A DNA stretch of 21,324 nt from an uncultured Verrucomicrobia subdivision 3 bacterium (GTDB lineage: Bacteria; Verrucomicrobiota; Verrucomicrobiae; Limisphaerales; UBA11358). The stretch spans positions 1-21,324 of the forward strand of contig CAINDH010000254.1 of NCBI GenBank assembly GCA_903847285.1, in the 5' to 3' direction. Shown piece by piece: positions 985-15,925 of the stretch (its first letter is position 1; the number at the start of each line of letters is the position of its first letter). Below the pieces are notes generated by a model. That model saw nothing but the letters and a program-made list of their open reading frames with translations, did no database searches and was not told where the DNA came from. The translations under genes were made by a program, and so were the position numbers.

Positions 985-990
985 AACGAA

Positions 991-1401
991 ATGGCTGCAA
1001 CCTTAAAACTCGAAATCGTCACTCCCTCGGCGACCATTTTCTCTGGCGACGTGGAGATGGTCACGCTCACTGGTATTGATGGTGAGATGGGGATTTTTCC
1101 CCAACATATGCCGATCATGACCCAGCTTGCGGCTGGCGAAATCATCGCCAAAAAGGGTTCGGAAAATATTTTTCTCGCCGTCGGCGACGGTTTTGTGCAG
1201 GTCACCGGCCAGACGGTTTCCGTTTTGACGGATATGGCGATCAAGGCGGATGACATTGACGAAGTTAAAGCCGAAGAGGCGCGTCAAAAAGCCGAAGCCC
1301 GGCTCGCGCAAAAATTAGGCGATGAGGAAACGGCTACCGTTCAGGCAACCTTGATGCACGCACTGACGCAGTTGCACGTGAAACGTCGCCGCAGAAACTG
1401 A
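991..1401 (+). CDS. atpC: F1F0 ATP synthase subunit epsilon
   Basis: The epsilon subunit is part of the central stalk, couples F1 to the c-ring and inhibits ATP hydrolysis. The 136 residues match the family length. The N-terminal beta-sandwich is seen in LKLEIVTPSATIFSGDVEMV, the GIDGEMGIFPQHMP motif and a later VGDGFVQVTGQTVSVLTD strand pair. The C-terminal third (about 90-136) is Ala/Glu/Arg-rich, as expected for the two-helix regulatory domain, and ends in a very basic KRRRRN tail. It is the last gene of the ATP synthase operon here and is followed by a weak terminator. The ATG start is fixed by the conserved N-terminus. Confidence 0.96.
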   Translation: MAATLKLEIVTPSATIFSGDVEMVTLTGIDGEMGIFPQHMPIMTQLAAGEIIAKKGSENIFLAVGDGFVQVTGQTVSVLTDMAIKADDIDEVKAEEARQKAEARLAQKLGDEETATVQATLMHALTQLHVKRRRRN

Positions 1402-1421
1402 TGGCTTTTCCTGTCAAATCG

Positions 1422-1443
1422 GTGCATTTCAAATGCGCTTTTT
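1422..1443 (+). terminator. Weak intrinsic terminator after atpC
   Basis: GTGCATT and AATGCGC form a 7-bp stem (one G-T wobble) around the loop TCA, directly followed by five T. The position, 21 bases after the atpC stop, suits the end of the ATP synthase operon. The stem is short and AT-rich, so termination may be partial. Confidence 0.45.
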
Positions 1444-1519
1444 ATGGGGAATCCAGCTCGGTCGAGAAATTTTGATTGGCTTGTCCACCGCAATTTGTTA
1501 ACCAGTTACACATCAATTT

Positions 1520-1621
1520 ATGGGATCACTCAAAAAACGCCGTAAGGCAAAAATCAATAAACACAAACGGCGCAAGAAGCTGCGCTTGAATCGTCACAAG
1601 AAGCGCACCTGGCAGAAGTAA
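1520..1621 (+). CDS. bS22-like / AURKAIP1-COX24 domain mini-protein (putative ribosomal protein)
   Basis: A 33-residue ORF starts [20 protein letters not shown] and ends [12 protein letters not shown], with more than half Lys/Arg. This is the pattern of the AURKAIP1/COX24 family, which includes mitochondrial small-subunit protein mS38 and the mycobacterial 30S protein bS22 (also about 33 residues, starting MGS). The inferred role is binding rRNA in the small ribosomal subunit. Standard gene callers often miss it because of its size. It lies between the atpC terminator and its own strong terminator, so it is probably a monocistronic transcript. No convincing Shine-Dalgarno is seen. The family call is by recognition of composition and pattern; ribosome binding is inferred. 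Confidence 0.82.
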
Positions 1622-1646
1622 ACTGCTGGACTCTGTTTTTCTTTCA

Positions 1647-1694
1647 ACCGTTCGCGGTCGTTGTCTTGTGCAGCTACCGCGAACGGTCTTTTTT
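1647..1694 (+). terminator. Strong intrinsic terminator after the bS22-like gene, abutting the DUF2203 start
   Basis: ACCGTTCGCGGT (1647-1658) and ACCGCGAACGGT (1676-1687) form a perfect 12-bp stem with a 17-nt loop, followed by C and six T. The T-run ends on the base before the ATG of the next gene at 1695. Confidence 0.85.
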
Positions 1695-2081
1695 ATGCCC
1701 TATCGTTTCGACAAGCATTACACCCGCGAAGAAGCGCGACAATTGTTACCGCAAGTCCGCCAGTGGCTCGTGGACCTCAACTATCAGCGCGAGGAAATGC
1801 AGCGTTATGAAAAACGGTTGACCGGTCTGGCGGAGCAGGGCAACGACATCGGGGGCGAGACGGTCAATAGTTGGATTCGCGCGTTGGCGGGGATGCAGGC
1901 ATTGCTTGCTGAATTCCAACGCCGTCAAATTTTTATCAAGGACGTGTCACGCGGGCTGGTTGATTTTCCAGCCATTATCGGTGGGCGTGAGGTTTTTCTC
2001 TGCTGGGAAAAAGACGAGGATGACATAGAATTCTGGCATGACTTGGAAACCGGCTTTACCGGGCGCGAAAAGCTTCTGTGA
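1695..2081 (+). CDS. DUF2203 family protein
   Basis: A 128-residue cytoplasmic protein of unknown function. The family signature is clear: N-terminal FDKHYTREEARQLLPQVRQW followed by a helical, coiled-coil-prone middle (about 20-80), then the C-terminal block GLVDFPAIIGGREVFLCW, EFWHDLETGFTGRE. No catalytic role is established for the family. The ATG at 1695 is preferred because the protein then begins just before the conserved FDKHYT; a GTG at 1668 would lie in the loop of the upstream terminator. The gene has no room for a normal leader, so it may be leaderless or expressed by read-through. It converges on the beta-propeller gene with only 3 bases between stops. Confidence 0.88.
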   Translation: MPYRFDKHYTREEARQLLPQVRQWLVDLNYQREEMQRYEKRLTGLAEQGNDIGGETVNSWIRALAGMQALLAEFQRRQIFIKDVSRGLVDFPAIIGGREVFLCWEKDEDDIEFWHDLETGFTGREKLL

Positions 2082-2084
2082 GGT

Positions 2085-3221
2085 TCAATTTCCTTTCTGC
2101 ACTCGGCCGGTATGTTGCGCGTTGGCTCGCCACAAAGGCCACGCACTTTTCGCCGGTGGAGAGGCATCAGCAGGTTTGAGAGCATAAAGGCGAGCCTGAT
2201 CATTCGCGTAGATGATGCCCTGCGGGCTGACATTCGGCGATGAGTTCAGGTTGAAATACATCTGGTAATTCCACACCGGCGGCCAGCAGTTTGTGGCGTT
2301 TAGACTGCTGATATTGAGCCAAGGAACCGAAAAATAAACCTGTCCATTCGCCGCGACCGCAGGCGACATATCCATGGGCACTTCGCACGGATGCCACCAT
2401 CGCATTTTACCATCAGCCCCAAGGCAGAAATCTTTTTTCCCGGACGACAGATAAAGATTCCCGTCTGCATCCAGAACGGGGGACGATTCGGTGTAGCCGC
2501 CCGTGCGAAAACGCCAACGTTCCGAGCCATCAGGTCGCAACGCGTAGAGGTTCCCATCCGTGGAACTGAAATAAACAGTTCCATCTGCGCCGATGGCGGG
2601 CGAGCCGTCCACCTCTGCACCGGTCAAAAATTTCCACTTCAGTTTCCCCGCCAAAGTGAGCGCGTAAAAAATCTTATCGTGCGAGCCGAAATAAATCGTT
2701 CCGTCGCGAGCGATGGCGGGTGATGATGTCACCAAATTACTGGTGGCAAATTTCCATTTCAATTTCCCGTCTGCATCCAGCGCGTAAAAACTCCCGTCCC
2801 ACGAACCAAAATATACCGAACCATCCCCCGCGATGGCGGGCGAAGAATCCACCCAAGCCCCAGTGGCAAAGGTCCACTTTAGTTTTCCCTTGGGCGTGAG
2901 CGCATAAAGTTTACGGTCGCGTGAACCGAAATAGATTGTGCCGTCGTCCGCCACGGCCGGTGAGGATTTGATCTCAAGTCCGGCCTTAAATTTCCAATTA
3001 AGCCGACCTTCCGGCGCGATGGCCAGCAGCCAGCCATGAAACGTGCCTTGGTAAATTGTCCCATCCAGCGCGATGGCCGCCGACGATTCACTGCCCTGAT
3101 CCGGCAGTGTCGCCCGCCAGAGCAGCGTGACCAAATTGGTGTCCGCTGCTTTGGTGGAAGTATGGGCAGCCGACAGTATTGTGGCGGCGAGCAGGAAAAC
3201 TTTTGAAGGATGCCGGAACAT
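2085..3221 (-). CDS. Secreted PQQ-type beta-propeller protein
   Basis: A 378-residue exported protein made of about eight repeats of roughly 40 residues. Repeats follow the pattern SPAVADDGTIYFGS, then LYALTPKGKLKWTFATG, typical of PQQ/PQQ_2 propeller blades, and the C-terminus closes with WPLWRANAQHTG. The start at 3221 gives a signal peptide (MFRHPSKVFLLAATILSAAH...); an upstream in-frame extension to 3272 lacks signal features. No catalytic residues of PQQ dehydrogenases are visible, so it is more likely a structural or binding propeller than an enzyme. It lies 73 bases downstream of the MbnP-peroxidase gene on the same strand and may be co-transcribed. A 6-bp inverted repeat (GGATTT/AAATCC, 3252-3270) lies in that gap. 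Confidence 0.85.
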   Translation of the reverse strand: MFRHPSKVFLLAATILSAAHTSTKAADTNLVTLLWRATLPDQGSESSAAIALDGTIYQGTFHGWLLAIAPEGRLNWKFKAGLEIKSSPAVADDGTIYFGSRDRKLYALTPKGKLKWTFATGAWVDSSPAIAGDGSVYFGSWDGSFYALDADGKLKWKFATSNLVTSSPAIARDGTIYFGSHDKIFYALTLAGKLKWKFLTGAEVDGSPAIGADGTVYFSSTDGNLYALRPDGSERWRFRTGGYTESSPVLDADGNLYLSSGKKDFCLGADGKMRWWHPCEVPMDMSPAVAANGQVYFSVPWLNISSLNATNCWPPVWNYQMYFNLNSSPNVSPQGIIYANDQARLYALKPADASPPAKSAWPLWRANAQHTGRVQKGN

Positions 3222-3294
3222 TGTGAATGGAAGTAAAGCGGCAATCGACTCGGATTTCAAACGCAAATCCAAAACGTCGTTGTCCCCCCCTTGT

Positions 3295-5115
3295 TTATTT
3301 ATTTGCAGCGCTATTGAATTGCCCGTCCGTGAGTGTGTTCAGAAACGCCACTAGCGCGCGTGTGTCCTCGTCGTTTAATGGCACGCCGCCATCGGGATGC
3401 TTTGCGAGATTGGGGTCGAGCGTTGGGCTGCGCCGGATGCCTGTGGAATAGTGCTGGAGGACATCTTCCAGCGTCTGGAAACGGCCATCGTGCATATACG
3501 GCGCGGTAAGCGCGACGTTGCGCAGGCTCGGGGTGGCAAATTTCCCACGATCGCTAGCCTTGCCTGTAACTTTCTCGCGGCCGAGGTCTGCCAACGAGGT
3601 GTCGGAACCATTGTTTGCAAAAGCCTGGCTCTGAAAGAGCGGCCCGCCGTGGCAATGAAAACAATCGGCGCCAAACTGTCCGCGACGTGGATCGTATTCT
3701 GTGGAAAACAATTCAAAGCCGCGCTGTTCTTGGGCAGTGAAGGATTCATCGCCGCGCAGCATCCGGTCAAATTTGGCGTTGAACGAGGTGAGCGTGAGTA
3801 AATAATTTTCCAACGCCAGCGAAACTTTTTCCGCAGTGATTTCCGGTGAACCATAGGCAGCGGTGAATAGTGACGCATAATCTTCTTTGATGGCGGCCGG
3901 CGCAGTAAAGCTTGGTTCGTTTTCTGGTTTTTTAGTTGCCGACTCTTCCCGTCGGTGACCGCCAAGTTTTACAACCAGATTTGTCAGCGACTGGTGCATC
4001 TCGACCGGATTTTGAATCGGCTGCAACACTTGTTCCCGTAAACTTTTTGCGCGGCCATCCCAGAAGAATTCTTTTTTCCAAGCCAGGTTGAAGAGCGGCA
4101 TCGAATTGCGTTCGCCGAACGCGCCTTCCGCGCCGCGCGCTGTGCGGCGGCCATCGCTGAAGGCTTTTTCCGGCGCGTGACAATCGGCGCAAGACTGCTG
4201 GTCGTTGATAGAAATGCGCTTGTCGAAAAATAATTTCTTGCCGAGTTCGACGCGTTCAACAATTAGGGGGTTGTCACGCGGCAAATCAGGAATGGGGAAC
4301 GTCGCGCTCATCTGGAATTCATACGGCGTGAATTTCGCCGGCAGATATAGCGGCTTGGGATGAGCGATGGCGATTTCCGTCGCGCTTAACTGCGTGATGC
4401 GATGCACGCGGAATGCCCCTGGAAGGTTCGCCGCGAGCGCAGCGGAGATTGGGTCGCCATCACGCGAGTGCGTGGAGGAGCCGTCCTTCGCAAGAGACAA
4501 CGGACGAGGCGCGTGCAGCAGCGTAGCCAGATCAAAATCCAGTTCTATCTTCGTCTCGTTGGTGATTTCGAGCGGCGTGGCGAGTGTGATGCGCATGGCG
4601 TTAGTGTCGCGCGCCAAGTGATACGACCAGCCGTCCAGTTCGCCATTCGCGTTGCGCCATAAACCTTCGAGCGCGAGAAAAATATAGCCGCCCTGCCAAC
4701 TCCAGTGCAGACCGTTCAAGTTGGGATTCAGTGGATGATTTGCTGGAAATTGAGCGATGTCCGCATGATTCAATTTTGTGTTCAACCCGACCAGAAAGCG
4801 CACCGCGCGGAATTCACCCGCCGGAATACTTTCCAAGAAAACTGAGTTGTGTTTCGCCTCAAAGTCTAGCCACGCGACAGAATTAGAGAGCTCTAGCCAT
4901 GAACCATCGTTTTTTTGCAGGGCGAACTCGCTGGCGAGGTAGCTGACGCGGGTGATGGAAAATGTTTCGTCCGTCGAAGTCTGGTAGCGAAGTGACGCCG
5001 GTTGCAACGCTTCGCCGGAAACTTTTGGCGTGATTTCAAGTTGCAGCGTGGCGGCGGCTAGTGTTACGCCGCTGAAAATGGCGAGGCCAAATGCGATTGT
5101 TCGCGTCTGGGTCAT
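3295..5115 (-). CDS. Secreted MbnP-like copper-binding domain fused to a di-haem cytochrome c peroxidase (MauG/CcpA type)
   Basis: A 606-residue exported protein. Residues 1-21 are a signal peptide. Residues about 23-245 match the MbnP copper-protein family, with the hallmark LNGLHWSWQGGYIFLALEG (W138, W140). Residues about 275-600 are a bacterial di-haem peroxidase: haem 1 motif CADCH (C309, C312, H313), haem 2 motif CFHCH (C485, C488, H489), and APYMHDGRFQTLEDVLQHY near the C-terminus, which holds possible sixth-ligand residues. In methanotrophs MbnH, a MauG homologue, oxidises an MbnP tryptophan to kynurenine to build a copper site; a cis version of that chemistry is an inference. The start at 5115 overlaps the YHYH stop as ATGA, indicating translational coupling. 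A 9-residue in-frame extension to 5142 is less likely because it precedes the signal peptide. Confidence 0.9.
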   Translation of the reverse strand: MTQTRTIAFGLAIFSGVTLAAATLQLEITPKVSGEALQPASLRYQTSTDETFSITRVSYLASEFALQKNDGSWLELSNSVAWLDFEAKHNSVFLESIPAGEFRAVRFLVGLNTKLNHADIAQFPANHPLNPNLNGLHWSWQGGYIFLALEGLWRNANGELDGWSYHLARDTNAMRITLATPLEITNETKIELDFDLATLLHAPRPLSLAKDGSSTHSRDGDPISAALAANLPGAFRVHRITQLSATEIAIAHPKPLYLPAKFTPYEFQMSATFPIPDLPRDNPLIVERVELGKKLFFDKRISINDQQSCADCHAPEKAFSDGRRTARGAEGAFGERNSMPLFNLAWKKEFFWDGRAKSLREQVLQPIQNPVEMHQSLTNLVVKLGGHRREESATKKPENEPSFTAPAAIKEDYASLFTAAYGSPEITAEKVSLALENYLLTLTSFNAKFDRMLRGDESFTAQEQRGFELFSTEYDPRRGQFGADCFHCHGGPLFQSQAFANNGSDTSLADLGREKVTGKASDRGKFATPSLRNVALTAPYMHDGRFQTLEDVLQHYSTGIRRSPTLDPNLAKHPDGGVPLNDEDTRALVAFLNTLTDGQFNSAANK

Positions 5116-6383
5116 TTTGATTCGTAGCCGTTGATGCTCCACGTCAAGGCTGTGGTTTTTGCGTTCAGCGTGCTCGCCGTTTTTACTACCGCCGCCGGAT
5201 GCGCTACGAAGTTCTTCGTCACCGCTTCGTGAATCGCAGAGACGAGTCGTCCATTCGGATACCCATGATAGCGCCGGCCCATGTTGTAAGGATAAACGGG
5301 CGTGCCGCTTGCATCAATCGTCGTGAAGTAGGCGAATGTGCCCTTGGGAAATTCCGGCGTCACGCACCAGCGGCCGTTCAGTTCGTCGAGATCAAAATCT
5401 TTGCCCAATATTTTTCCGCAGTCGCCGAGATAGGCGAAGTCCTCGATGTAATATCCCAACGGACGGTTTTGATTCACCGCTGGGCCGGTTTGTTTCGCAT
5501 TCATAGATTGTTCGCGCACCGCCCAGGCGGGCAGGGCGGTGCGGCCGTTTTGAGCGAGATTGTCCGTGCCATTCCCGCCGTTGCGCGCTGCGAAGCCCGA
5601 CACCATCCGGCGCAGGCCGCTTGCGGGATTCGTCGGGTTGGAATAACCGTAAGGCCCGTAGAGCGGATAACCATCCTGCATCCAGCCAATGATGGGTGAA
5701 TGTTTTACCGGTGCGCTGCTGCTCTCGCGGTAAGTTTTTGTCGCGGAATCAAAATCCACGTAGTCGCCAAGCAGGTAACGCAGCGCGATGGGTTCCGCGT
5801 GGTAATGATAAGTTCCGCGATTCTGCTGATGCGCGTAGGCGGCATCGAATGTCCGGCTCTCGTTCAGAAACGCGTCGCGGTTCCAGATGCGGTCACCGTT
5901 GCCGCCACCGCCGCCGGGGCCGAAATCGCGGCTCGCCGCACTGGAGTAAGACCACGCATCTCCCGAATCAAACATCCGCACGCCGTCCACGAACATCCCG
6001 ATCTCGCCGAGGTGGTTGAAATTATTTCCCTTCTGTTCGACCGGATGGCGGCACATCGCAAAAATGAAATGCTGGTCCACCGGAAGGTTTGGAAAACGTC
6101 CGTTCTGCCACGGCCCCATGATCTGGCTGCCGAGACCGGTGCTGCGGATGTAAATCCAGTTGGACGACGATAAGATTTCTTGCACGCCGCAGAAGGCTGG
6201 TTGCGATTGTGCGTTGCGTCCGTTGCTCCAGGTTGTCACCGACTGGCTGGAATTTTTTTCCGCAGCGGTGCGGTAGATTTGCGCCACCTTGCCGGAGTTG
6301 GCCGTGAACCACGACGTGAGTTGTGGTTCAGCCTGTAAGTTTGAGGCCAGTGCCAAAAAGATGGCCGAGTAGATAGTTTTCAT
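5112..6383 (-). CDS. Secreted YHYH-domain protein
   Basis: A 423-residue exported protein with a signal peptide (MKTIYSAIFLALASNLQA, cleavage near 18-19). It carries the family-defining YHYH at 192-195 in GTYHYHAEPIALRYLLGD, followed by HSPIIGWMQDGYPLYGPYGY and the later CVTPEFPKGTFAYF block, all typical of the YHYH family (PF14240). The clustered His and Tyr suggest metal binding, but the biochemical function is not established. A glycine-rich GPGGGGGNGD loop lies near 157. It is the first gene of the YHYH / MbnP-peroxidase unit. A sigma70-like pair (TTGAAA, 17 nt, TTAATG) lies upstream at 6434-6406; no Shine-Dalgarno is seen. Confidence 0.88.
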   Translation of the reverse strand: MKTIYSAIFLALASNLQAEPQLTSWFTANSGKVAQIYRTAAEKNSSQSVTTWSNGRNAQSQPAFCGVQEILSSSNWIYIRSTGLGSQIMGPWQNGRFPNLPVDQHFIFAMCRHPVEQKGNNFNHLGEIGMFVDGVRMFDSGDAWSYSSAASRDFGPGGGGGNGDRIWNRDAFLNESRTFDAAYAHQQNRGTYHYHAEPIALRYLLGDYVDFDSATKTYRESSSAPVKHSPIIGWMQDGYPLYGPYGYSNPTNPASGLRRMVSGFAARNGGNGTDNLAQNGRTALPAWAVREQSMNAKQTGPAVNQNRPLGYYIEDFAYLGDCGKILGKDFDLDELNGRWCVTPEFPKGTFAYFTTIDASGTPVYPYNMGRRYHGYPNGRLVSAIHEAVTKNFVAHPAAVVKTASTLNAKTTALTWSINGYESK

Positions 6384-7740: not shown

Positions 7741-8190
7741 CTATCGGGGGATCTCCGCATCGCGTAGTCCGGCGGCGTAGGCTTCGAACACGCGGCGCAT
7801 CTCGTCGCGCACAGTGCGAAAACAATTCAAGATTTCGTCATCGCTGCCGGTGGCGTGCGCGGGGTCGAGGAACGGCCAGTGATGGCGGTTTAACTGGCCA
7901 GGAAAAATTGGGCACGCTTGATCCGCGTTGCCGCAGACGGTGATCACGGTGGCGATGGGTTGCTGCAAAAATTCTGTGAGCGGCTTTGAGCGGTGGTTGG
8001 AAATATCTATACCGACTTCTGCCATGACTTTGATGGCGAGCGGATGCACGTAGCCCGCTGGTTTGGAACCGGCGCTCTGGACATTCGCGCGGTCGCCAAG
8101 TGTAGTTCGCAAAAAGCCTTCGCCAATATGGCTGCGGCAGGAATTGCCGGTGCAGAGAATGAGGATGGTTGGTTTGGAATTCGTGGGCAT
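7741..8190 (-). CDS. arsC: Arsenate reductase, thioredoxin-coupled low-molecular-weight phosphatase type
   Basis: It reduces arsenate to arsenite in the cytoplasm, giving the substrate of the Acr3 pump. The 149-residue protein has the phosphatase-like P-loop CTGNSCRS (nucleophile C13, R19) and the resolving cysteine pair C86 and C93 in ITVCGNADQACP. The C86-C93 spacing of seven equals that of the S. aureus enzyme (C82/C89), indicating thioredoxin rather than glutaredoxin recycling. HPLAIKVMAEVGIDISNHRSK and the WPFLDPAHATG block are also family features. The start is 4 bases after the acr3 stop, so it is in the same transcript. Confidence 0.95.
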   Translation of the reverse strand: MPTNSKPTILILCTGNSCRSHIGEGFLRTTLGDRANVQSAGSKPAGYVHPLAIKVMAEVGIDISNHRSKPLTEFLQQPIATVITVCGNADQACPIFPGQLNRHHWPFLDPAHATGSDDEILNCFRTVRDEMRRVFEAYAAGLRDAEIPR

Positions 8191-8194
8191 AAAT

Positions 8195-9262
8195 TCAATT
8201 TAGTTTTTCCTGATACCAGCCGCGCGACTGGTTGCAGAGGTTGCAGACGGACAACATCACCGGCACTTCAACGAGCACTCCGACGACGGTCGCCAGCGCC
8301 GCGCCTGAACTCGCGCCGAATAGCGTGATGGCCACGGCCACGGCTAGCTCAAAGAAGTTGCTCGCGCCAATCAGGGTGCCGGGCGAAGCCACGTTGTGAG
8401 GCACGCGCAGCTTGCGCATCAGCAAATAGGCCAGGGTGGAATTAAAATAGACTTGAATCACTATCGGCACGGCCAGCAGAAGCACGGCCAGCCACCGCGT
8501 GGTTAAATTTTCCGCCTGAAATGCGAAGATCAAGACGAGCGTCATCAATAGCGCAAAGACGGTCACGGGTTGAAACTTCGGTAGAAATTGTTGGTCAAAC
8601 CAGTCCTGGCCGCGCAGTTTTAGAAACGCTGTTCGCGTTAGCCATCCAGCTGTGAGTGGAATGACGATAAAAATGACAACACTGGTCACAAGCACTTTTG
8701 ACGGCACGACCACATTCGCCACCCCACAAAGGAACATCACAATAGGTGCGAACGCTACCAGCATGATGAGATCGTTCACGGCCACTTGCACGAGCGTATA
8801 GACCGGGTCACCGTCGGTGAGATAACTCCACACAAATACCATCGCCGTGCACGGCGCGGCGGCGAGGATGATAAGGCCGGCTGTATACTCTTTTGCTAGT
8901 TCCGGTGATATCCACGCGCTAAAAATGTGTGACATGAACAGCCAGCCAAGGAACGCCATGCTGAACGGTTTCACCAGCCAGTTGATGAAGAGGGTGACAG
9001 CAAGACCTTTGGGCCGTTTGGCCACACCGCCGACAGCGCGGAAATCTACTTTTAACATCATCGGATAAATCATTAGCCAGATAAGCACGGCAATGGGTGC
9101 GTTGACATGCGAGCCGCTGACAAACTCGATTTTGCTCAAGTCTGCCGTGAAGCCCGGCGCAAATTTACCGAACAGCACGCCGACCACCATGCAGAGAAAA
9201 ACCCAGAGCGTCAGGTAGCGTTCAAAGAACGCGAGGCGTTTGGGTGCGGTTGGATGATTCAT
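8195..9262 (-). CDS. acr3: Arsenite efflux permease, ACR3 family
   Basis: An inner-membrane arsenite exporter of 355 residues with about ten hydrophobic segments. The family signature ILAAAPCTAMVFVWSYLTDG contains C138, corresponding to the essential transmembrane-4 cysteine of characterised Acr3 proteins. Other conserved parts are WLMIYPMMLKVDF, KPFSMAFLGWLF, VAVNDLIMLVAFAPI and the GASNFFELAVAVAITLFG helix. The short C-terminus has CNLCNQS, which could bind arsenite but may be incidental. It lies between the DUF6428 gene (12-base gap) and arsC (4-base gap). Confidence 0.96.
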   Translation of the reverse strand: MNHPTAPKRLAFFERYLTLWVFLCMVVGVLFGKFAPGFTADLSKIEFVSGSHVNAPIAVLIWLMIYPMMLKVDFRAVGGVAKRPKGLAVTLFINWLVKPFSMAFLGWLFMSHIFSAWISPELAKEYTAGLIILAAAPCTAMVFVWSYLTDGDPVYTLVQVAVNDLIMLVAFAPIVMFLCGVANVVVPSKVLVTSVVIFIVIPLTAGWLTRTAFLKLRGQDWFDQQFLPKFQPVTVFALLMTLVLIFAFQAENLTTRWLAVLLLAVPIVIQVYFNSTLAYLLMRKLRVPHNVASPGTLIGASNFFELAVAVAITLFGASSGAALATVVGVLVEVPVMLSVCNLCNQSRGWYQEKLN

Positions 9263-9274
9263 CGTTTCGGATGT

Positions 9275-9766
9275 TTAAGAGCAGCACCTGGTTTCGGGCG
9301 GCGTATCTGTAAAAACAAATTTCATCGGGCTGAACTCTGAAGGGGCGGGGGTGGGAGGCAGGCATTTGTCCATCGCGAGACAGGCTGTGTGACGTTCCGT
9401 TAGCTGAAAAATAAGTTCGCCGTTGACGACATCAATCGAGCCAAGTGGGAATTGGGTGATGTGACTCAGTTCGTGTTCCACATCCACGTCCAGATCGTCC
9501 GTCAGTAGCACGCTTTCCGCCTTTCCAAAAATTTTCAACAGCTTGCCGGACGTCAGCCGGTGCTCCACATCGTTGGCGGACCAGGTTTGCAGTCGGCAGT
9601 GCGAATCTGTCCGCAGCGAGCCGCCGCAGTCAATGAACCGTTTGTCAATCCGCGCCACCTCGGTGACATGACTATGGGCGGGCGCAAACTCACCGTTAGG
9701 AAGTTGGAAACGCACCAATGCCCACGGGTGTTGAGCGAGAATGGTCTTAAGTTCGTGCAGTTTCAT
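9275..9766 (-). CDS. DUF6428 family protein of the ars operon
   Basis: A 163-residue soluble protein with no signal or membrane segment. It matches the pattern of the DUF6428 family: LPNGEFAPAHSHVTEVARID, then KRFIDCGGSLRTD, LQTWSANDVEHRL near 60, and a late TACLAMDKCLPP. The family is often beside arsenic genes but has no established activity. His31/His33, Cys47, Cys57, Cys129/Cys135 and the C-terminal Cys161-Cys162 pair could bind arsenite or a metal. It starts 3 bases after the arsR stop and is followed by acr3, so it is under ArsR control here. A role as arsenite carrier or accessory is conjecture. Confidence 0.85.
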   Translation of the reverse strand: MKLHELKTILAQHPWALVRFQLPNGEFAPAHSHVTEVARIDKRFIDCGGSLRTDSHCRLQTWSANDVEHRLTSGKLLKIFGKAESVLLTDDLDVDVEHELSHITQFPLGSIDVVNGELIFQLTERHTACLAMDKCLPPTPAPSEFSPMKFVFTDTPPETRCCS

Positions 9767-9769
9767 AGC

Positions 9770-10135
9770 TCAGCAACATTTCTGTCGGCGACAAATCACC
9801 GCTAGGTCGGTTTTTAAAATCTGTTTCAATTTTTTGGCGTCCAACTTGGTTTCAGTTGAGCGGGCGAGCGATTTGTGAACCCAGTCGAGCGCCTCGCGCA
9901 CGGCGACGGGCGCGGTCTTATCCGTCAGGCGGTAATACACCCATCGCTCCGACTTGCGCGATAGGATGAGGTGTGCGTGATGCAAAATGGAAAGATGCTT
10001 GGAAACCGTGGACGGTGCGAAGCCGAACAGTTCGGTTATTTGGCAGACGCATAACTCACCGCCGCGCAACGCGAGAAGGATCCGCACCCGGTTCGGGTCC
10101 GACAACGCTTTGGTGATGGCCATGAATTCTCGCAT
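9770..10135 (-). CDS. arsR: ArsR-family winged-helix arsenite-responsive repressor
   Basis: A 121-residue repressor that releases DNA when arsenite binds. The winged-helix core is clear: AITKALSDPNRVRILLALRG, GELCVCQITELFGFAPSTVS, KHLSILHHAHLILSRKSERW, VYYRL. The ELCVC motif supplies C29 and C31. The C-terminus adds C115, C120 and C121 (CRRQKCC), so the exact metalloid site could be the helix pair, the tail, or both. The start at 10135 is preferred over the ATG at 10123 because MREFMAITKAL resembles other family N-termini. It is the first gene of the operon and probably autoregulated through the inverted repeat just upstream. Confidence 0.94.
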   Translation of the reverse strand: MREFMAITKALSDPNRVRILLALRGGELCVCQITELFGFAPSTVSKHLSILHHAHLILSRKSERWVYYRLTDKTAPVAVREALDWVHKSLARSTETKLDAKKLKQILKTDLAVICRRQKCC

Positions 10136-11985: not shown

Positions 11986-14900
11986 TCACGGAAAAATCAT
12001 CCGGTAGAAAACATTTCCAGCGGCGGTATCCATCTGGAAATCCATCTGGTTTGTCAACGTGGAGCCGGCCACATCCAGCCAGTTCGTGCCAATGCCGGTG
12101 AGTAAATCATTTGTCTGTGTCTGCAATCGCCATCCGATGTGGTCTGCTGGCCAGGCGAGTGTGAGCGTATTGCCGCTGACACTGGGCGCAACCTCCGTGG
12201 GATTCAGCGCGACAGTGGAGGTGATGCTCAACGTGCCGAGGGCGGGCGACCACTGCCATTTGAACCCGTTGGGCAGCGCGGGGAAATTCGTGGCGGCAAA
12301 TACGCCCGTCGGGGCGACGCTGTTGCTGAAAATCTGGAAGGTATCGCCCGCCCACAACGTGCCAGCGAGATTCGTCACGACCAAAGTTCCACCGAGTGCA
12401 AACGAGCCGGTGACGCGCAACAGGTCATTCGAGCCGGAATTTTTATCGATTTCAATGCGCGTGGTGCTGCCGGCAGACAGGGTGAGGTTGTTGCTTATGG
12501 TGAGCGTTCCAAAATTGTCGCCGGGCGCGAGCGTGGCACCGGAGGGCACGGTGACGGCCGGGCGGATGACGCCATTGCCCCCGAGCGTAGTTCCGCTGGC
12601 AATGCCCAGCGGCGCGGGCGGCAGGATGCCATCCACAAATAACGAGCCGGCGTTGAGGAGGGTGCCACTGGCGTTGACGGTTCCGTAGGTGTTTGGCCCG
12701 GCAAGTGTCAATTTTCCAGTTCCATTTTTCGTCAGGAAAATCGTGGAGCCATTGGTTGACTCGAGCATTGGGCCGATGACGAGGTGATTTCCCGCGCCGG
12801 TGAAATAATTCGTGCGTCCGCCCACCAGGCCGCCGACGTATTGGTTGGTTCCGGTGAAAACAATCAGGCCAGAATCACATTGGATGCTGTGGGAGTTGCC
12901 GCCCTGAAACATGGCAAAGTTGCCGTTGAAAATATTCGTGCCGGCGAGGTTTTGAATCGTGACGGCGGTGGCGAGGCGGTAGGTCACGGTGAAATTTGCG
13001 TCAATGGTGACGTTGCCGGTGGAGCCATCAATTTGCAGGGTGGAGGTGCCGCTGTTGTTTTTGTTGATGGTGATGAGTGAGGCGTTCGCCAGCGCGTTCG
13101 GGCCAACGACGCGGACGATGCCATCGCTGCCAGAACTGCCGCCGGTGTCTAGATTGACAGTGCCAGAGAGCGAGTTGTTGCCGCTGACTATGAGCGTGCC
13201 CGTGCCGTTTTTGGTGAAGCCGTTCGTGCCAGCGAGCGGCGCGGAAATCGTGGCTGTGTTGGTGACGGAAAGCAGCGGCGACGTGGCAGAACCGGAACTT
13301 AAAGTGAGGGAGTTAACGTCCGTGCCCGCGATGGTCCACGTCTGCGCGCCGGACGTGTCGCTGAACTTGAGGTTGCCGATGGTGCGCGGGCTGTTGAGCG
13401 TGACGGTGCGGTTGGCGGTTGGATTGATGGTGCTGAAGTCCGCCGTTTGTCCCGCGCCCGTGGCGACGATGCTGCCGCTCCAGCGAGCCGTCTCGCCCCA
13501 ATTCGCACTCGCATCCGCCGTCCAAGTTCCGGGAGCGGTAAGCACGGTCACGGCAATGGTGACGAGGGTGAAACCACTTTGCCCGGCGGCATCGGTCGCG
13601 CGCATGGTGAAATAATTTGTGCCGCCATCGCCGGATGTCGGTATGCCGGTCATGATGCCATTGGTGGAAATCGTGAGCCACGCGGGGCCAATTGCTTTGG
13701 TGTAAACAAACGTGTCGCCGGGATCGGCGTCGGTGGCCGAGCCGGCGAGCGTGTTGGAATAAAGAATTCCCTCGGTGGCCGAACCGCGCGCGATGATATT
13801 GTTTGTGAATTGCGGCGGTGTGTTGGTTTGCAGCGCGGCAATTTGTGCGGCAGAAAGCGCGTAGTCGGTGATGAGCACGTCGTCCATCAAGCCGTTGAAC
13901 AGCGGATCCGCGGGATACTGGCTTTTGCCGAGATAATTCAAGCGCGGCGAAAAGTTTGCGGGCGTGATGCTCATGCCGGTGTTTTGCGCAGCAAGCGCGC
14001 CGTTGACGTAGATTTTTGCAGTCGTGCCGCTCAAAGTGACGGCGACGTGCTGCCACGAACCGGTGGCGGGCGCGGTGGTTTGGACGGTCTGTTCGCTGCC
14101 GCCATTGCGAATCGCAAAACGCAGGAACCCGCCAGTGGCGCTCGGCGTGAGAAACATATAATGCGTGGAGCTGTTGCCGAAATCAAAGATGCGCTGCCAG
14201 TTCGCGCCGCCGTTCCAGTTGATCCAGCCGGCGAAAGTGAACGCGCTGCCCGTGGCGACATTTGACGGCAGCGTGACGCGTGTGTTCGCGCCGTCAAACA
14301 CCATCGCCTGGCCGCTGTGGCCATTCGTGTAGCCAGGGCTGCCGCTGGTAATGCCGTTGTTGCCATATCCGGAAGTGTCGAGTGTATTCGTGTCGAAACG
14401 AAGCTGCGCTAAGCTACGTGTGCCATTGTCCGCCAAGGCTTGCAAGTATCCAACCGGCGAATACTCGTCGCGGTAGGCGATGCCCGCGCCAGTGAGCACG
14501 TTGTTGGTCGTCACCTGCCGCACGGTCTCCACCCAATTATAAAGTGCGTAGCGCTCCACGAACGGCGTGCTGTCGAGCATCGCAGTCATGGCGGCGATGC
14601 ACGCCTGCTGTTGTGCGTAAGTAGGGTCGCCGCAGCCGGTCCAGTTGGCGCCGTTGTTCCATTCGGTGATCCAGAGAGGACGCTTCACTGTGTCGTAGGT
14701 TGCCTTGAGAAAATTATACATCTGGTTTGCCGCGCCGTTGGGATCGGCGGGATTGAAGCACCAGTAAAAATGCACCGGCACAAAATCCACGCGCAAACCC
14801 GCTGCGTCCGCCTGCGTCATGAACGGATACAGCCAACTGCTGCGCCCACCATCGGAAACCGCTGGCGCCCCGACCCGCAAGCCCGTCCCGAGCAGGTCCG

Positions 14901-15801
14901 GCCACGAGTAAATCGCGTCGCCCACGGCGATGTTTGCCTGGTCCGTGTGATCCGGCTCATTGTAGCCGAGCACCTGACACGCGCCGCGCGCTTTCCAGTC
15001 TTGGCCCAAGCCCGGCCACCAGCGCAACTGGCGGATAGGAACGTATTCAAAATCGCGGGAGGAGTTCTGGTCAATGTTCCAGTTATACCACCATTGGAGG
15101 TTCAAGAGGCTGTTGCCGGGATCCCCCGAGATACCTTTCTTACTCGTCCACCGCCATGGCGTGATATAGACGAAACGCACGTTGTCATCGAGCTCACTCG
15201 GCAGCAGGCTGATTTCCATGTCACCGTCCGCCGCGACGTAATTCCTGCTGAAGCCCGACCCACTGGCGTTCTGCGCGAGTGTGGCCGTGTAACCGCGTTT
15301 CAATTTGAACGAACTGGCCGTTGCGTTCAGCGCTCCGAGCCCTGTGCCCGTGTAATAAACATATTGGCTGAGGTTCAGCGCCACCCCGGTGAAATGCGGT
15401 CCGGTAAAAAGTTGTAGTGGCTGAAATGCTGGCGCGTGCGGAATGATGACCGCTCCCACCCCGTATTGAACCACGCGACAATTGCTATCCACCACCGCGA
15501 CTGAGCCGTTGACGCGCACCTGCGGTAGATAAGTCGAGACCGCCAAGGAAGGCTTGATGCCGGACAGAACGAAAAATGCGTCGGCAGAATTCAGGTTAAT
15601 GAGGCACCCAGGGATGGGATTTGCGGTCGCCGTCACGCGCAATTCGCATCGGTTGCTCATCGTCACAGTCGTGTTCGTGAGCGTGGCAAAAACTGTTGTG
15701 CCGTTGGTGAGCGTCAGTGTTTCCGCTGTGACCGCCAGCGGCAACATCAGTCCAATGGTCAACAGCGCGCAAAGAGATTGCTTTTTAAAAAAGGTGACCA
15801 T
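11986..15801 (-). CDS. Large secreted GH128-like glycosidase with LamG, Ig-like and autotransporter-type beta-strand repeats
   Basis: A 1271-residue exported protein. Signal peptide 1-26 (MVTFFKKQSLCALLTIGLML). Residues about 95-215 may be a beta/gamma-crystallin-like domain (FTGPHFTGVALNLS, SFKLKRGYTATL); this is tentative. Residues about 220-450 form a glycosyl hydrolase catalytic core of the Asl1/GH128 type, with acid/base E282 in LGYNEPDH and nucleophile E380 in PLWITEWNN, 98 residues apart. LamG-like jelly-roll at about 465-655 (VFDGANTRVTLPS, FTFAGWINW, WQHVAVTL). Ig-like He_PIG at 661-750. PATR beta-helix repeats follow (GFTKNGTGTLIVSGNNSLSG, LTKNGTGKLTLAGPNTYG). The C-terminus (NWLDVAGSTLTN, FYRMIFP) resembles the barrel-less ends of verrucomicrobial secreted proteins. 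Beta-1,3-glucan is the likely substrate class. Starts at 15810 (ATG) or 15825 (TTG) are possible; GATAAT at 15831-15826 could be a -10. Confidence 0.82.
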   Translation of the reverse strand: MVTFFKKQSLCALLTIGLMLPLAVTAETLTLTNGTTVFATLTNTTVTMSNRCELRVTATANPIPGCLINLNSADAFFVLSGIKPSLAVSTYLPQVRVNGSVAVVDSNCRVVQYGVGAVIIPHAPAFQPLQLFTGPHFTGVALNLSQYVYYTGTGLGALNATASSFKLKRGYTATLAQNASGSGFSRNYVAADGDMEISLLPSELDDNVRFVYITPWRWTSKKGISGDPGNSLLNLQWWYNWNIDQNSSRDFEYVPIRQLRWWPGLGQDWKARGACQVLGYNEPDHTDQANIAVGDAIYSWPDLLGTGLRVGAPAVSDGGRSSWLYPFMTQADAAGLRVDFVPVHFYWCFNPADPNGAANQMYNFLKATYDTVKRPLWITEWNNGANWTGCGDPTYAQQQACIAAMTAMLDSTPFVERYALYNWVETVRQVTTNNVLTGAGIAYRDEYSPVGYLQALADNGTRSLAQLRFDTNTLDTSGYGNNGITSGSPGYTNGHSGQAMVFDGANTRVTLPSNVATGSAFTFAGWINWNGGANWQRIFDFGNSSTHYMFLTPSATGGFLRFAIRNGGSEQTVQTTAPATGSWQHVAVTLSGTTAKIYVNGALAAQNTGMSITPANFSPRLNYLGKSQYPADPLFNGLMDDVLITDYALSAAQIAALQTNTPPQFTNNIIARGSATEGILYSNTLAGSATDADPGDTFVYTKAIGPAWLTISTNGIMTGIPTSGDGGTNYFTMRATDAAGQSGFTLVTIAVTVLTAPGTWTADASANWGETARWSGSIVATGAGQTADFSTINPTANRTVTLNSPRTIGNLKFSDTSGAQTWTIAGTDVNSLTLSSGSATSPLLSVTNTATISAPLAGTNGFTKNGTGTLIVSGNNSLSGTVNLDTGGSSGSDGIVRVVGPNALANASLITINKNNSGTSTLQIDGSTGNVTIDANFTVTYRLATAVTIQNLAGTNIFNGNFAMFQGGNSHSIQCDSGLIVFTGTNQYVGGLVGGRTNYFTGAGNHLVIGPMLESTNGSTIFLTKNGTGKLTLAGPNTYGTVNASGTLLNAGSLFVDGILPPAPLGIASGTTLGGNGVIRPAVTVPSGATLAPGDNFGTLTISNNLTLSAGSTTRIEIDKNSGSNDLLRVTGSFALGGTLVVTNLAGTLWAGDTFQIFSNSVAPTGVFAATNFPALPNGFKWQWSPALGTLSITSTVALNPTEVAPSVSGNTLTLAWPADHIGWRLQTQTNDLLTGIGTNWLDVAGSTLTNQMDFQMDTAAGNVFYRMIFP

Positions 15802-15925
15802 GTGGTGCATATCTGGAATGCCCAAATTATCGCATCAATCACCGAAAAATCATCTTCTAAAAACAAATCGTCACGGCGCGCGCAGGCAACCCGCTGGCTT
15901 GACCATGGTTGGATCGATAACCGCG

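Follow-up and report, generated by a model that had tools for sequence, protein, structure and literature searches.

Copper-binding domains of the MbnP type are prepared by a haem enzyme, which oxidises one of their tryptophans. MbnP and its di-haem partner MbnH are encoded as a pair in methanobactin and copper operons, and a portion of a 2013 paper describes this pair as conserved far beyond methanobactin producers (PMC3621798). In excerpts of the literature on methanotroph copper proteins, the ligands are given as Kyn130, His132 and His203 for MopE and as Kyn62, His64 and His114 for CorA, Kyn denoting kynurenine (PMC3423442, PMC3912023). Here, we analysed a window of 21,324 nucleotides (nt; contig CAINDH010000254.1, positions 1 to 21,324) from an uncultured Verrucomicrobia subdivision 3 bacterium, in which one gene encodes an MbnP domain and an MbnH/MauG-like di-haem oxidase domain in a single polypeptide of 606 amino acids (3295..5115, minus strand, as are all features of this protein given below). 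With moderate confidence, we favour the reading that this fusion is a self-maturing, exported copper protein carrying its own maturation enzyme.

Two modules in one polypeptide

The open reading frame of the fusion runs from an ATG at 5115-5113 to a stop codon at 3297-3295. The original prediction had placed an MbnP-like and a di-haem peroxidase module at this location and left the strand unstated; the frame lies on the minus strand, and the plus-strand frame from 3295 contains many stops. Profile searches, run as had been proposed, bore out both modules. The MbnP family (PF20243) matches residues 23-211 (E 6e-35; 121.3 bits against a cut-off of 27), where residues 23-245 had been claimed. For the peroxidase module with two CXXCH motifs, claimed at 275-600, we found CCP_MauG (PF03150) at residues 287-457 (E 2.2e-52) and Cytochrom_C at residues 481-595 (E 7.4e-6), with haem site 1 at CADCH 309-313 (4177..4191) and haem site 2 at CFHCH 485-489 (3649..3663). 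With the MbnP match significant, the single-polypeptide fusion is real.

A Sec-like signal peptide (residues 1-22, MTQTRTIAFGLAIFSGVTLAAA; 5050..5115), called by eye, precedes the MbnP domain (residues 20-249; 4369..5058), a linker lying between the fold-matched ranges (residues 250-263; 4327..4368) and the oxidase domain (residues 264-603; 3307..4326). The predicted fold of the N-terminal domain matches the MbnP fold of 7l6g, and the oxidase domain is closest to MbnH both by sequence and by predicted fold; sequence and modelling together assign the protein to the MbnP family and to the Tyr-type di-haem enzymes. Between the haem sites, the stretch at residues 385-412 is very variable in length among relatives and in several of them (P0025, P0043, P0093, P0099 and others) looks like in-frame translated dispersed repeats (ALSPGEREKRS, LSPLPAGEGQGEGE).

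The fusion is not a chance or assembly join, because both Pfam domains occur in all 120 matches listed from a protein search (the window's own protein counted) and because a single open frame spans W138 and Y556 in all 80 fusion loci kept from a genome scan. The former was restricted to the 7998 candidates with most words in common, and 5005 of the proteins thus scored had E ≤ 1e-3. The latter, covering one genome per species, returned at least 558 relatives, of which the best 80 were kept, with frames of 496-724 amino acids; one of its two patterns was WSWQGG[YF]I (WSWQGGY being residues 138-144 of the fusion protein), and 46/80 loci lack this pattern with both Trp nevertheless present. The titles of the kept loci name Verrucomicrobiota or groups within it; the exception is L021, titled only 'bacterium'.

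PF20243 was present in 10 of 194 genomes of the phylum, counting the centre genome G001, which holds locus L015 of Chthoniobacter flavus. By tblastn, eight of these ten carry full-length fusions and one a frame-broken fusion (L091); for the tenth (L094 in G125), no haem domain was found in the fetched stretch. In L094, the MbnP piece lies in a 153-amino-acid frame, and a gene for a YHYH protein (see below) is located just upstream in the genome. MbnP thus being mostly fused in this phylum, the fusion is no rarity: the architecture is widespread and common in one bacterial phylum. The suggestion that it may already exist in databases proved apt (120 listed proteins, 80 loci, 8/194 genomes with full-length copies), and our additions are a ligand swap and a link to YHYH proteins. 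None of 271 matched plasmid records has a single region covering 80% of the fusion, and literature searches found no laboratory study of a fused MbnP-di-haem arrangement.

As to enzyme type, the oxidase domain is MauG/MbnH-like and not CcpA-like because Tyr occupies the six-coordinate haem column, namely Y556 (3448..3450), a predicted axial ligand that aligns as Tyr in 80/80 loci. According to passages of the BthA paper (PMC6405878), this haem is Tyr-His ligated in MauG and Met-His ligated in bacterial cytochrome c peroxidases (bCcPs). Among 15 aligned di-haem proteins, the residue at the Y556 column is Met in the peroxidases of Gloeocapsa and Paraburkholderia and Tyr in all others, namely four fusions, five MbnH, one MauG, two proteins from Deinococcus and one from Hymenobacter; two of the three annotated cytochrome c peroxidases compared have Met and the third Tyr. 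As judged by alignment, Y556 occupies the sixth-ligand column for haem 2 and so marks the fusion as a Tyr-type enzyme, the ligation itself being predicted. Of the earlier label 'MauG/CcpA-type', the MauG half stands and the CcpA half falls, the Met of bCcPs being absent from all 80 loci. W352 (4060..4062) is invariant in the 80 loci and is Trp in all 15 di-haem proteins; we take it to be the counterpart of MauG W93, located between the haems. Also kept in 80/80 loci is a distal-pocket pair, Q362 and E372 (4000..4032), which together with P366 is spaced like Gln103, Glu113 and Pro107 of MauG (residue names, including Tyr294, taken from PDB titles).

In all five classical loci compared (Methylocystis parvus, M. 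iwaonis, Paracoccus, Ideonella and Trichormus), mbnP is followed by the di-haem gene, the two overlapping by 4 nt in M. parvus. The order is the same in D. radiodurans, with CopC and CopD downstream, and in D. grandis, with two genes in between. The domain order of the fusion equals the gene order of the five classical loci, which makes a self-modifying copper protein the natural reading, and we infer that the fusion probably arose by joining of adjacent mbnP and mbnH-type genes. In a haem-domain tree of 26 rows, MauG being a long one, 15 fusions form one group (97/97), and the fusions, MbnH, Deinococcus, MauG and Hymenobacter are split from two Met-type peroxidases (100/100).

As a separate observation, five di-haem genes located after mbnP carry the public name 'methanobactin export MATE transporter MbnM' (L098 4627-5787, L099 4528-5697, L100 4545-5816, L101 4610-5761 and L103 4696-5880). 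This name looks wrong, given a match at 1.5e-201 between the L098 protein and MbnH 6e1c and the presence of both haem sites in all five proteins.

The predicted copper site

The WxW motif of the MbnP domain, W138-S-W140 (4696..4704), is W/W in 80/80 loci and in 125/125 classical MbnPs. Both residues had been put forward as candidates for oxidation, and both are indeed invariant; we narrow the choice to W138 as the likelier one. A 2021 study by Manesis reportedly found the Cu(I) of MtMbnP bound by a kynurenine that derives from the first Trp, together with solvent, a single His and a single Met, and by analogy we presume W138, the first Trp of WxW, to be the kynurenine precursor.

As copper ligands, which the original prediction did not name, we expect H166 (4618..4620) and H216 (4468..4470). 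The former is kept in 80/80 loci and aligns with the HLG-type His of classical MbnPs; the latter is kept in 79/80 and aligns with their CM-motif Met, expected of TIGR04052 members, for which the fusion has His. The sole exception, L053, has Pro at 216 and is also the shortest open frame (496 amino acids). These pairings derive from a profile alignment between the fusion and classical MbnPs (probability 98.95, E 1e-17, 205 columns), which likewise matches H117, W138 and W140 to their classical counterparts; all 125 classical MbnPs have the two Trp, the NH-type and HLG-type His residues and the CM-motif Met. A second Met just before WxW, present in 104/125 of them, is a candidate for the copper-ligand Met of MtMbnP. 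D221 is kept in 80/80 loci, and W138, W140, H166, H216 and D221 are nearly invariant down to ~46% identity. His at 216 also occurs in the unfused proteins P0231-P0234 (one named Bacteroidia) and P0225, and the Met-to-His swap is therefore not confined to the fusion.

Proposed self-maturation, the YHYH protein and competing readings

In the self-maturing reading, peroxide would bring the C-terminal MbnH/MauG-like di-haem domain to a bis-Fe(IV) state, from which it may convert W138, in the N-terminal MbnP domain, into kynurenine by oxidation. The kynurenine would complete a copper site with H166 and H216, and the fusion and the YHYH protein may together serve copper handling in the cell envelope. 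The self-modifying copper protein originally envisaged is thus upheld in its two modules, invariant WxW, MbnH-nearest oxidase and matching gene order; its chemistry we infer.

The YHYH protein (423 amino acids; 5112..6383, minus strand; Pfam PF14240, E 1.9e-38, 132.8 bits against a cut-off of 25) is encoded upstream, and the fusion's ATG overlaps its stop codon as ATGA. In 37/80 fusion loci, a same-strand YHYH gene is found no more than 400 nt upstream of the fusion; in two it is adjacent downstream and in four it lies farther away, six loci have no upstream room, and the fetched stretch of the remaining 31 contains no YHYH. The 30 genomes to which these 31 loci belong comprise 26 with YHYH elsewhere and four with none at all. 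Across the 194 genomes of the phylum, YHYH occurs in 17 (in one, G126, under the Pfam cut-off), comprising all 10 MbnP genomes versus 7/184 others; without G001, which was picked for having the fusion, the counts are 9/9 versus 7/184 (Fisher p ~1e-11, uncorrected for kinship). In an alignment of the window's protein with 39 adjacent YHYH proteins, D180, H185, H193 and H195 are each present in 40/40, as are W167 and Y242. H193-Y-H195 (5799..5807, minus strand) is, together with H185 and D180, a metal-site candidate; part of a jumbo-phage paper ascribes to the YHYH domain a predicted zinc site of three His and one Asp and a predicted hydrolase role (PMC7824862). At L062, the gene immediately preceding the fusion (985-4014) joins a YHYH domain to a sulfatase domain.

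Such linkage would also fit an oxidase acting mainly in trans, for instance on the adjoining YHYH protein, with the MbnP domain as a docking or electron-relay module. Proximity in 37/80 loci, co-occurrence in 10/10 MbnP genomes and the modifiable invariant W167, Y242 and His residues of YHYH (40/40) favour this, but mere docking would not need a near-invariant WxW-His-His set, and YHYH is missing from the fetched stretch of 31 loci and altogether from four of the 30 genomes concerned; we consider action in trans rather unlikely. A bolder extension of self-maturation, which we put forward tentatively and regard as rather unlikely, would be a phylum-wide family of His/His/kynurenine copper proteins whose oxidase stays attached, the centre acting as a permanent relay that modifies or loads the YHYH metalloprotein. 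If true, this permanent copper-di-haem relay would differ, as a copper oxidation module, from the MbnH-MbnP pair with its one-shot action.

Distinctly unlikely, in our estimate, is a peroxidase that detoxifies hydrogen peroxide and uses a copper-loaded MbnP domain as its electron entry site. Relatives are called cytochrome c peroxidase in some sources, the fold is common to bCcPs, and BthA is an example of peroxide turnover by a bis-Fe(IV) di-haem enzyme (passages of PMC6405878), but the six-coordinate haem column holds Tyr, not Met, and the 100/100 branch separates the haem domain from the two Met-type bCcPs. A loss of copper, leaving the MbnP domain to bind another metal or merely to hold the enzyme in place, would agree with the non-His residues at position 117 in 41/80 loci and the replacement of the classical Met, but is very unlikely given how nearly invariant W138, W140, H166, H216 and D221 are.

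Several results weigh against self-maturation. The fusion falls outside both NCBI equivalogs, scoring 42.6 with TIGR04052 (MbnP_like_WxW; cut-off 140) and 220.8 with TIGR04039 (MbnH; cut-off 362.85). In the haem-domain tree, MbnH, Deinococcus, MauG and Hymenobacter cluster to the exclusion of the fusions (89/83, an unstarred branch), and the tree therefore does not place the fusions within classical MbnH. H117 is His in only 39/80 loci, though invariant in the 125 classical MbnPs. A second protein search gave 121 aligned rows including the query, or 74 after 47 incomplete ones were dropped, and W-W-H-H is found in 66/74; eight deviate, six of them at H216 alone, and P0226 has lost all four residues, although some of the eight may be truncated or frame-broken. 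Finally, no copper family was found among six scanned representatives of nine neighbour clusters (at least four loci each; most single neighbours unscanned).

The neighbours other than YHYH are weak evidence, which leaves the MbnP domain as the main basis for a copper role. A PQQ-type beta-propeller protein (2085..3272, minus strand; Pfam PQQ_2), encoded 22 nt downstream of the fusion, is a possible third operon gene. Close relatives lie directly downstream only at L001 (58% identity, 13 nt) and L017 (61%, 49 nt) of the 80 loci; propeller proteins are found downstream in 11/80, nine of them within 100 nt, and those beyond L001 and L017 are distant or dissimilar. A two-component regulator cluster lies near the fusion in 17/80 loci, and the one member tested scored best with a heavy-metal regulator model, yet under its cut-off. 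At L032, a CusA/CzcA-family pump ends 34 nt upstream of the fusion, and at L018, a CusB-like adaptor lies 2.8 kb upstream. The window genes scanned included none recognisable as a methanobactin gene. Elsewhere in the window, an arsenic-type cluster on the same strand (7741-10135) comprises a low-molecular-weight-phosphatase-like (arsC-like) gene, an SBF-family transporter that we read as ACR3-like, DUF6428 and an ArsR-type regulator, and 11986-15825 encodes a 1279-amino-acid protein with a glycosyl hydrolase core plus LamG and immunoglobulin-like domains.

Comparison with known systems

If self-maturation is right, the covalent link between substrate and maturase would let kynurenine formation be traced in one purified protein without partner binding, and how MbnH-MbnP chemistry works could be tested more easily. 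Kynurenine copper sites would extend to a large, little-studied phylum, a natural His-for-Met swap would be available for comparison, and the enigmatic YHYH family would gain a functional lead.

The MbnP-MbnH pair (7l6g, 6e1c) has in common with the fusion its two folds, the WxW motif, the HLG-type His and a di-haem enzyme of the Tyr type, with P preceding H in both. It differs in that the fusion is one polypeptide, has H216 in place of the classical invariant Met, does not keep H117 across its family and lacks both Cys of the GCM...C motif found in classical proteins. The Deinococcus radiodurans genes for MbnP and a cytochrome-c peroxidase, found with CopC/CopD, are an unfused pair in a copper context, and differ in being two genes. 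MopE/SACCP and CorA/CorB of methanotrophs resemble the fusion in a predicted His/His/kynurenine copper site and a di-haem peroxidase-type partner, and by analogy the Met-to-His swap would make its site resemble the His/His sites of MopE and CorA; there, however, one ligand His lies at Trp+2, a position taken by W140 in the fusion, and the two partners are separate proteins. MauG and pre-methylamine dehydrogenase likewise combine a Tyr-type di-haem fold with oxidation of a Trp in a protein substrate, but the substrate is another, the product is tryptophan tryptophylquinone and the proteins are separate. The di-haem cytochrome c peroxidases (bCcP, CcpA, MacA), finally, have the same overall fold and two CXXCH sites, and depart from the fusion in the Met that the two typical ones compared carry at the Y556 column.
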